This document shows positions 46,231 to 58,847 of a stretch of 64,000 nucleotides of DNA, piece after piece. The DNA comes from Ianthella basta (lineage: Eukaryota > Porifera > Demospongiae > Verongiida > Ianthellidae). The position numbers and the translations under genes were made by a program. Position 1 is the first letter of the stretch, and the number at the start of each line of letters is the position of its first letter. The notes under the pieces were generated by a model. The model was not told the DNA's origin. It saw only the letters and a program-made list of their open reading frames with translations, and did not search any database. The stretch is from positions 5,052,915-5,116,914 of the forward strand of contig OZ025870.1 of assembly GCA_964019415.1 (NCBI GenBank), written 5' to 3'.

Positions 46231-46472
46231 TATGGGGTGCCGTTTGTGTCAAAACTCGAACTCGAGGAGACGATTTTATGATGTCACCGATTCCAACAAT
46301 GGCGACGATTCTGGATGCAGCCGCAAATATGCGGCGACGATTCCGCACAGCAACCTCCATTCCGTGGCGACGAATTTACCGAAGCGACGAATCTCTCTGT
46401 ATGGCGTCGATTATACCGAAGCGACGAATTTCTCTGTATGGCGACGATTTTACTGGAGCGACGAATTTCTCT
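46231..46472 (+). repeat. Left inverted repeat of the 12.6-kb transposon, with 37-bp minisatellite
   Basis: The outer 130 bp are unique sequence. The inner part holds about 2.6 units of a 37-bp repeat (ACCGAAGCGACGAATTTCTC and so on). The right end carries the same sequence inverted, with more units. Confidence 0.85.
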
Positions 46473-46908
46473 CTAGCAAGCCGACTATGCATAAGATCGT
46501 ATGATGTCCCAGAAAAAGATTCAATTGCAATTAAAACGACACGTGGGGGTTTCGTAAAACGGCCATTTCGCAGCCATTTTGTTTGCCCTCGCTAGCGCAC
46601 GTATATACGAGCGCATTTTAATCACGTGATGTTGCTATCTCGACCACGTGGTGTTTGCTGCGGCTTTGCCATTGTGTTTGCGCATCCTATGCCCTCTAAT
46701 GGAATTTCCCACTGCAATAGTGAGTGACTGGGCACCCTCATTGCTAACCCAAATATCTTCTATATCGCATCACACATGGTAGTCACCCTGAAATTCTCAA
46801 CCATAATTATACAGAACCATGGCAATAACAAGATGCAAAGTCAGCAGCGTATAGCTATAGCACTAACCAGCAGATACACACAGAGAGACAATGTTGCACG
46901 CAGCTATC

Positions 46909-49900
46909 CTACACTACTCCAAACCCCCCATGTCCTTTCATGGCTGTAATCATAGCTGCCCTGAAGCTGCGGTATTCATCGTGCCTCGTTGGCAGCCACA
47001 ACTCCAGTGTGCAAGTGGAGGCAGTGGGGAAGATATCAGTTGGACTGTGGAGGAAAACCAGAGTTGGTTGCCTGATGAAGCCCAGTGGAGGTATCCTGTC
47101 TGCTCCTGTGAAGAAGATTAGCACGTCTGTAAGTGCTACAGGGCATTTGTCCTCAGTTTCCAGGGTGCCATCTGCATGTGAATGATCATTGAAGACAATA
47201 ACTAGCTACATTACTACGGATTGCAATTCTACTGTAATCTATGGCAGATCATTCAGAGATTTATGATTGCACTGCACCAGTCTTGTGCAGAACGTACCTT
47301 CACATTCATCTAGGAAATCTACAAAATGGATGAAACACGCTTCTTCTTTCTCTCTCTCCTGGGTACCACGGTTGCTGAACCCAGCCTTTAACATGGCTAT
47401 GAAATATTCTGTATTATTATATAAGCACATTATGTGAAGATGAGAAAATGCTATATATTCAGCAGTTAGATAGAATTTATATACATACTGCACACACTAG
47501 TTAATGATACACATGCAAATACCTTTGGTCAGTTGGATTTCCTGCTGTGACACAAGTAGTGGTTTCATCAATTCCGGTTGAGCACGCATCATGTCAAGTA
47601 GCTGATAAGCATTTAGCCCATCAATGAATTGGTCCATTTCCACTTGCCCCTTTGTGATGGTATGATACTGACGAAGGGTCAGGATCAGCTCTACTCTGTC
47701 ATCCAGGTTGATCATGGATAAGGGCTTACGATAGCCAGTTTCGAAAACTAGACTGCTGAAGTCATCATCCGTGAATACCTCCCTCAATGCCTGGTCACTT
47801 TGAGCTCTATGTATCTATACATCAGATATATATATACAGTCATTATCGTATAATTGTAACCCTAAGTGCATGAGCACTATTATATATTATACTTCATATG
47901 GTCATGCATGATTTTCAGCATTTAACACACTGAAACAATTCAATCCTATCCATGAAGTTTTGTCATATGATTCATGAAAATGCCACCTTTTCAACATTAT
48001 ATACCTATATAATTTTAATAGTTAATTTATGCCAACATACCTCTGCTAGGAGACTCCGTACTTGATGGTCAGGGACATCTGAATCTGTTAGGTCCAGGGT
48101 ATGATATTGCCCCGTTGTAATGTAATCATAGGCCGCAGGTAGAAGCACAGGGAAGCCCGGTCCTCCCTGCATTGCGGACATTGAAACTAGATTGCCCAGC
48201 ATCTTGAACTCTGAACCCTGTGGAATAGGCCATGAAAGTGCATGCATTTGTTGGTATACTCATCAATGCAACTAATGCTTTACCAGAACTGACTTTGCCA
48301 GGAAAACTGAATAATTTTACCTGTAGAGCAGGTGTATTTCTGTCAAACACCAGCTTGCCTTCTTCCCCATGGCAATACTTTGCCATCATTGCATTCATAG
48401 TGAGCCTCCAAAATTCTCGGCTCGGTCCACCGGTGTCTACTGCTTCTTCCCCAACAAAGGACACCTACAATTCAGAATAGTTCACACTAGATTCTCTGCA
48501 CCAGCAAAATTGGCACAATTATCAACCTTGTACCTCTAGCAGTTTATTGTAGGTGAACCGGGGCTTCCGCATTTCGCGGAAGGTATCCGCAAGGACGAAT
48601 GAACGGCGCACATCAATCCGGACTCGTGGTGCATCCAACCATTCCATTTCTGTTTTCGGTGCTGGTAAGCTTGCCTTTTGCTGCAGTGCCACAATGCAGC
48701 TGGCCAGGCTCGTGGGCTGGTTCACTCTACAACATGCAGGTGGTATATTATCATACCCCAGTGATCGAAGTGCAACAAGACAAAAGTTTAATGGATACAT
48801 AACACAGGAAAAATTGCATCTCTTTACGGCCCCGTAACAACGCAGAAACAGCTCCGTATTTAACGTTTTTACGGGATGTTACGTAATACCGTCTGCCCAA
48901 AATGACGGACCCCGTTCCTACCGTAATGGGACCACTTATAAAAAACGGTGACCGTTGTTAGCCGTATAATCGGCTGTATCACACCGTCTATACCCGTAAC
49001 TGAGACGATTCCAGTGCTGTTTCACCGGTCTACGCACGGTGCGGAAGCACAGTTCACAGCTGATCGCCACGGGATCCCGTACTAGGCCGTATATACCTAG
49101 CTAGCTATACGTAGCTATAGCCACCATGCAGCGTACCATGCGCCCAGCAAAGCAGTGCTATAGACAAATACTGGTAACAGTGTTACAAAAAAAGAAGATA
49201 CACATAAATAAAGATGTTCTGTTCTTCAAAAAGTGTTCTGCATCCACTCCAGAGTATTTTCACAATCTTCACTTTCCATTCTCTGCTTCACTGACCAGGG
49301 AACGTAACAGCCGCCTCATGGCCATTCTCCTTTACATTAGCACAAGTCCATTCTGTAGGAAGCAATAAAACAAGCTATCAACCACCTGCTACACACTTCT
49401 CACAATTCACACAAACACTATAGCTAGCATGGTATTGCTTTACCTCACTTTCTTGGCCAGTACATAATTGTTGTCTTTGGTGGATTTCTTGGGCAGGACA
49501 TGACTTGCTTTCAGCATTGCCTTCGTATGATGGCTAGATGAGTTGCTGTATAAAGAGAAGTCAAATGTCAGGGTAAGACACTGCATAGTTGCCATGATGA
49601 AGAGGTTTTGAATTCCTTCACCTACCCATGAGGCCTATTCATTTTTCTGCAGAATGTTCCTCTTAGGTTGAACCATCTCAAGAAACTCTGGACAGTGCAA
49701 GACACAAGAAGGAAGAAGCATACAGCTAGCTACAGGAAGATCTGGACATTCTGACAGTTTTAGCTAGTATATTTCCTAACTACCACGTACCTTCTTCTTA
49801 GCTTACTGCCACAGGCAAGACAGTAAGAGTGACTCCCTTTTTGCTTTGGCGTTCCTAATCCATCTTGGGATACAGCGCTAAACGCGCAAGCTGTGATAGC

Positions 49901-58474: not shown

Positions 58475-58540
58475 GCTCGACAATCACTATAAGGCAGATA
58501 TCTAGGAACAGAGTGTATAGCACGTGCTCACCAACAGGTT

Positions 58541-58847
58541 CGTGGCTCCATTAAATCGTCGCCATACAGAGAGATTCGTGGCTTCGGTAAAATCGTCGCC
58601 ATACAGAGAAATTCGTCGCTTCGGTAAAAGTTGTCGCCATACAGAGAAATTCGTCGCTTCGGTAAAATCGTCGCCATACAGAGAGATTCGTCGCTTCGGT
58701 AAATTCGTCGCTACGGAATGGAGGTTGCTGTGTGGAATCGTCGCCGCATATTTGCGGCTGCATCCAGAATCGTCGCCATTGTTGGAATCGGTGACGTCAT
58801 AAAATCGTCTCCTCGAGTTCGAGTTTTGACACAAACGGCACCCCATA
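58541..58847 (-). repeat. Right inverted repeat of the 12.6-kb transposon, with 37-bp minisatellite
   Basis: Inverted copy of 46231-46472 with about four full 37-bp units instead of 2.6. The outer 130 bp differ from the left end at only a few bases (for example TGACGTCA against TGATGTCA). Confidence 0.85.

Follow-up and report, generated by a model that had tools for sequence, protein, structure and literature searches.

Some plant and animal transposons carry Ulp1 or OTU genes, which encode ubiquitin-like protein proteases. The IS3EU elements, according to one description, have TA..TA ends, usually generate 6-bp target duplications and encode a DDE transposase related to those of the IS3 and IS481 families (PMC10045372). 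Fungal IS3EU elements, as presented in a further account, have TAYGG..CCRTA ends and carry genes for a TET/JBP dioxygenase and an alpha-kinase, of which the TET/JBP companion is thought to counter methylation or silencing (PMC12730594). A literature search, with Repbase Reports outside its scope, showed among the papers listed no report of a HECT gene in IS3EU or any other DNA transposon, and a study of animal HECT ligases (PMC2837046) contains no word beginning with "transpos". Here we report an IS3EU-type DNA transposon in Ianthella basta that carries an integrase gene together with a HECT gene and has recently multiplied as one unit.

The element lies in a stretch of 64,000 nucleotides (C3:5052915-5116914 of the 209-Mb genome, which comprises 96 contigs), hereafter referred to as the window. 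The preliminary description had proposed a transposon spanning 46231..58847, in which nearly identical inverted repeats enclose an integrase gene and a HECT ligase gene. Its ends and gene content are borne out: the 221-nt arms, 97% complementary, flank both genes, which lie on the same (minus) strand and comprise 13 exons in total (2 + 11) without an internal stop in our splice model (Table 1). By contrast, the size of 12.6 kb is inflated, because two nested insertions are private to the window copy, and the element proper measures about 7.73 kb. The termini read TATGGGG..CCCCATA, and the window contains two instances of the terminal 18-mer when up to three mismatches are allowed, as compared with a mean of 0.07 in shuffled sequence. 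The left subterminal period-37 repeat may provide integrase-binding sites.

Table 1. Coordinates of the features of the window copy and of integrase loci lacking HECT (positions without a contig name are those of the window)
Feature	Position	Strand	Details
Left terminal inverted repeat	46231..46451	+	Starts TATGGGGTGCCG; 97% complementary to right arm over 221 nt
Right terminal inverted repeat	58627..58847	-	Finishes CGGCACCCCATA; ends shared with five further copies
Subterminal tandem repeat, left	46365..46472	.	Period 37, 2.9 copies; repeat analysis
Subterminal tandem repeat, right	58553..58711	.	Period 37, 4.3 copies; repeat analysis
Nested insertion in HECT intron 2	~53478..54874	.	1397 bp; private to window copy; bounds by alignment of copies
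Nested insertion in HECT intron 5	~48803..52257	.	3455 bp; private to window copy; bounds by alignment of copies
Integrase exon 1	58383..58474	-	Splice model; frame and splice sites kept in 6/6 copies
Integrase exon 2	56406..57555	-	HTH and rva_4 DDE core; splice model and Pfam
HECT exon 1	55486..55700	-	Splice model
HECT exon 2	54893..55349	-	N-domain; splice model; ~41% identical stretches in L025, L034
HECT exon 3	52956..53033	-	Splice model
HECT exon 4	52719..52859	-	Proline-rich linker; splice model; linker resembles P0122
HECT exon 5	52532..52645	-	UIM-like stretch; splice model
HECT exon 6	48534..48716	-	HECT N-lobe start; splice model; acceptor placed with help of P0122
HECT exon 7	48321..48464	-	Splice model
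HECT exon 8	48041..48217	-	Splice model
HECT exon 9	47523..47814	-	Splice model
HECT exon 10	47298..47408	-	Splice model
HECT exon 11	46909..47171	-	C-lobe with catalytic-cysteine motif PTASTC; splice model; aligned to AREL1 C-lobe
Paralogue of left flank of window copy	32542..32706	+	94.6% identity; similarity halts exactly at inverted repeat (unoccupied left side)
L033	C12:438375		3.2-kb F25 element, most of HECT deleted; GTACTC both sides
L034	C17:1863311		3.4 kb (L034 2274-5667); intact integrase and N-domain frame; no HECT
L035	C19:4469969		2.4 kb, integrase only, related to F25; TTTAAG both sides
HECT-less integrase locus	C19:4563354		L035-like size judged by its ends
HECT-less integrase locus	C1:15716444		Ends 1.8 kb apart
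HECT-less integrase locus	C14:1976192		No HECT domain within 10 kb

The genome contains six full-length end pairs with 97–100% identity, on C3 (the window copy), C21, C2 (two copies) and C7 (two copies). Integrase and HECT gene lie on the same strand in all six copies, each of which occupies a different genomic site, and the copies are 99.37–99.95% identical to one another over about 7.7 kb. All 13 matches to the inverted repeat at 97–100% identity fall within these six elements; the remaining 13 matches (70–83%) are diverged, and some lie within short elements. The motif TATGGGG..CCCCATA stands at both ends of the window copy and of four of the five others, one end of L005 reading TATGGAG. 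Exact 6-bp target duplications flank L001 (using its outer right end), L003 and L004, whereas that of L005 has one mismatch and that of L002 is shifted by one base. L001, the C21 copy, has one extra end repeat on the right, with an extra stretch of 202 bp (element at L001 459-8388). The surrounding DNA is a satellite with the unit GATTTGTAAATCATGG; when the two flanks are joined across a single copy of the duplication, the result is a unit found 31 times in the 971 flanking bases. The search for an empty site thus succeeded at L001, which interrupts a satellite unit standing uninterrupted alongside, and the test set beforehand, that further copies should hold both genes between the same repeats, yielded the six copies at different sites. 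Since both genes occur in six copies, with target duplications and an empty site, they move together.

At the window copy itself, the target duplication is absent (left GCAGCG, right GTGTTA). The right flank does not continue the paralogue of the left flank, indicating that the right side of the window copy was rearranged later or is misjoined. This right flank begins with 73 bp that match their own place only, followed by a dispersed repeat (40 of 67 candidates scored). The dispersed repeat that adjoins the right end of the transposon is 2.6 kb long and is present in two copies of opposite orientation in the window (58921-61478 and 301-2890; 91.5% identity), and about 40 other places in the genome match its end piece. 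A gene-bearing segment is also repeated in the window, at 30361-32706 and 43779-46230, with pieces at 16603-17835, 41121-41928 and 63213-63898; these are diverged copies in both orientations (about 81–95% identity), and the transposon stands at the end of one of them. Long simple repeats (TG, AC and GGAGG units) occupy 25649-25823, 26058-26823 and 26979-27338.

The integrase consists of 413 residues encoded by two exons on the minus strand, without an internal stop. It matches the Pfam family rva_4 (PF24764; E=1.4e-72) and the NCBIfam models for IS481 (E=8.5e-13) and IS3 (E=8.8e-10), the latter two significantly yet below the curated cut-offs. In the region upstream of the catalytic core, where IS3EU transposases would lack an HHCC motif, the Pfam listing at E<=0.5 gives HTH models only. 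Comparison of the predicted fold with the PDB gave matches to retroviral integrase, IstA, TnsB and MuA, which, at the middling quality of the prediction (pLDDT 72.6, pTM 0.55), support the fold class only. The 6-bp duplication of IS3EU elements is exact in L001, L003 and L004, and also in F25, F17, L033 and L035 (described below). The ends, the duplication length and the type of transposase fit IS3EU.

The HECT gene comprises 11 exons encoding 724 residues on the minus strand, has no internal stop and has ten introns that are all GT-AG in the window; its length in the present splice model is 724 residues rather than the 716 first read. Pfam HECT covers residues 428-723 with 44.4 bits (cut-off 23.9), and the encoded protein is a predicted HECT E3 ubiquitin ligase that keeps the catalytic-cysteine motif. 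Two protein searches (7996 and 7992 candidates scored) each returned the same two matches, P0121 and P0122. P0121, a G2/M phase-specific E3 ubiquitin-protein ligase-like protein of Amphimedon queenslandica, is the sole named HECT relative found, and P0122 supports the start of exon 6, as its reading frame continues across the same place. Vertebrate G2E3 has N-terminal PHD/RING-type fingers; in the 724-residue protein, Pfam at E<=0.5 finds HECT only, without the fingers expected of a G2E3 orthologue. The N-domain (exon 2) matches no Pfam family over the cut-off, and its fold prediction (pLDDT 31) gives no usable model. The stretch in exon 5, which we take to be UIM-like from its motif, has no Pfam UIM match. 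Similarity between the N-terminal region and that of P0122 is not significant (the score was reached in 9 of 100 shuffles). The linker and UIM-like stretch together resemble P0122 (score reached in 1 of 1000 shuffles), whereas the comparison with P0121 gave a score reached in 65 of 1000 shuffles. Scans of viral contigs and genome contigs revealed no relative.

The integrase frame is open in all six copies and the HECT frame in five, that of L002 having two stops, and the junctions of HECT exons 2-10 are AG/GT in 6/6 copies (the six-copy check covers these exons; the terminal HECT exons had their splice sites checked in the window copy). The copies differ by 23 nonsynonymous and 7 synonymous changes in the HECT gene (dN/dS ~0.95) and by 14 and 5, respectively, in the integrase gene (dN/dS ~0.83). 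These changes look neutral and thus give no sign of selection after the most recent expansion. CpG transitions account for 28 of the 94 scored two-state changes, with CpG bases making up about 5% of L003 (192 sites in 7735 bp), an excess that would fit methylation of the copies. Between families, dN is 0.30-0.80 and synonymous sites are saturated (pS 0.74-0.84), which precludes a dN/dS value; the pattern suggests that both genes have long been under purifying selection.

Diverged families in the same genome carry the same pair of genes. The F25 family (C1, C13, C16 and C18) and the F17 family (C4, C7, C20 and C23) have integrases 51% and 46% identical, respectively, to that of the window, each accompanied by a HECT gene; in both, integrase and HECT lie tail to tail, as opposed to the same-strand arrangement of the window family. 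A single member per family was followed to both termini: the F25 member on C1 measures 5952 bp and has the exact 6-bp duplication GTGTTC, and the F17 member on C4 measures 5479 bp and has the exact 6-bp duplication ACAATG. Outside the window family, C-lobes were read at 12 loci, and all 12 stretches contain PTASTC (L020, L029 and L030, which showed no match to HECT, were left out). Because these diverged families keep both genes, in another orientation and with the catalytic-cysteine motif, the integrase–HECT pairing in this genome predates the window family. In L023 (~2004-3615), HECT exons up to 60–64% identical to those of the window lie beside an integrase with stops; there the ligase has apparently survived in better condition than the integrase, possibly a stage on the way to adoption by the host.

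Across the genome, the searches, which scored 108 of 142 candidates for integrase, and 62 of 116 and 115 of 115 in the others, found at least 101 integrase matches in 67 loci, so that the counts are lower bounds. Among the 22 loci with an uninterrupted integrase match of at least 270 residues, a HECT domain lies within 10 kb in 16, and one more has the N-domain only; the chance of HECT within 10 kb of an integrase locus is about 0.006 per locus. The other 45 integrase loci have HECT within 10 kb in four cases. This count took in the 101 integrase places and the places from the HECT searches (all 89, and 42 of 91, the 49 left out being further exons of the six window-family copies). Either HECT search found a locus in 52 cases, 20 near an integrase and 32 not, and the latter are taken to include presumed host HECT genes. 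Searching with the HECT domain of the window copy gave 20 loci, of which 18 are within 10 kb of an integrase, a count that used 21 of the 101 integrase places, making the distances upper bounds.

Elements lacking HECT also exist: 6 of the 22 loci with a long uninterrupted integrase match have no HECT domain within 10 kb (Table 1). L034, which has no target duplication, retains a separate open frame of 235 residues that corresponds to the N-domain of the HECT protein only. Since the HECT-less L033 and L035 carry exact duplications, HECT within the element is not strictly required, and such elements may possibly receive help from other copies. The end motif (up to two mismatches) occurs 78 times in the genome, as compared with once for the reversed control, and some pairs are 0.3-1.2 kb apart.

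We regard it as highly probable that the locus is a DNA transposon with a co-mobile HECT ligase and that selection maintains the ligase as a companion gene for the transposon's benefit, whichever protein it targets. As distant relatives in the same genome keep the same gene pair, the HECT gene probably helps the element, and we infer that the ligase is a selected companion rather than passive cargo. The chance capture of a host gene that then travels along without a function would agree with the HECT-less integrase elements and with the neutral appearance of the changes among copies; yet the pairing recurs with integrases that are only 46–51% identical, in both relative orientations, and 18 of 20 loci of the window's HECT type lie within 10 kb of an integrase, which makes such chance capture very unlikely. 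Still further from probable is a pair of unrelated stand-alone MITEs flanking two host genes. The missing duplication at the window copy would suit such an arrangement, but we reject two independent MITEs because both genes lie between these ends in six copies, three of which have exact duplications.

With respect to how the ligase might help, we tentatively consider a host silencing or repair factor the most likely target, by analogy with described elements. The N-domain and linker would bring the ligase to such a host protein, one that limits the transposon, and the HECT domain would ubiquitinate the recruited factor, much as the TET/JBP companion of fungal IS3EU elements may act against methylation. 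Host factors are ranked first because fungal IS3EU elements carry a companion gene with a proposed anti-silencing role (PMC12730594), and because the copies show CpG decay. The HECT protein might instead act on the element's own integrase, either setting its levels or removing it from joined DNA after strand transfer, a reading that deserves serious attention even though we lean against it. ClpX removes MuA from joined DNA after strand transfer, and MuA and TnsB are among the proteins that the integrase resembles in its predicted fold. The persistence of the pairing in diverged families would agree with an action on the integrase, as would L034, in which an N-domain protein without HECT beside the integrase fits binding of the N-domain to the element's own machinery; the integrase-only elements with exact duplications argue against it. 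It is improbable that the N-domain is the working part, binding, for example, DNA or integrase, with the HECT domain secondary: L034 does keep its 235-residue N-domain frame beside an intact integrase with no HECT domain, but PTASTC is kept in 12 of 12 other C-lobe stretches, and L034, lacking a duplication, may be a decayed deletion product.

A young DNA transposon family has thus recently mobilized a whole, intron-containing ubiquitin-ligase gene that retains its catalytic motif, and the pairing recurs in diverged families, providing a defined system for studying the use of the ubiquitin pathway by a eukaryotic transposon. The findings also carry a warning that transposon genes may account for part of what is taken for expansion of host HECT families. 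In a broader and rather doubtful extension, an IS3EU lineage might have a long-standing second transposition gene in HECT, with either host silencing or the integrase complex as its point of action, and many invertebrate G2/M phase-specific E3 ligase-like genes might be its copies.

Comparison with known systems places the element as follows. Like the transposons with Ulp1 or OTU genes, it carries an enzyme of the ubiquitin/SUMO pathway; theirs are said to remove modifiers, whereas the present one is a predicted ligase. Among related proteins, P0121 of A. queenslandica is a 42% identical HECT protein from an annotated host gene, and AREL1, a HECT ligase of solved structure whose entry 6jx5 ranks first among PDB sequences matched to the C-lobe (E=1.7e-08), is a host protein with weak overall similarity. 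The element shares TA..TA ends, 6-bp duplications and an IS3/IS481-related DDE transposase with IS3EU, and differs in its HECT gene from IS3EU as described in PMC10045372, the available part of which has no mention of ubiquitin or HECT. It differs from fungal IS3EU elements, with their dioxygenase companion, in having a ligase (HECT and ubiquitin have no mention in PMC12730594). As in those fungal elements, however, there is a companion gene besides the transposase, and their TAYGG..CCRTA ends fit the TATGG..CCATA found here.
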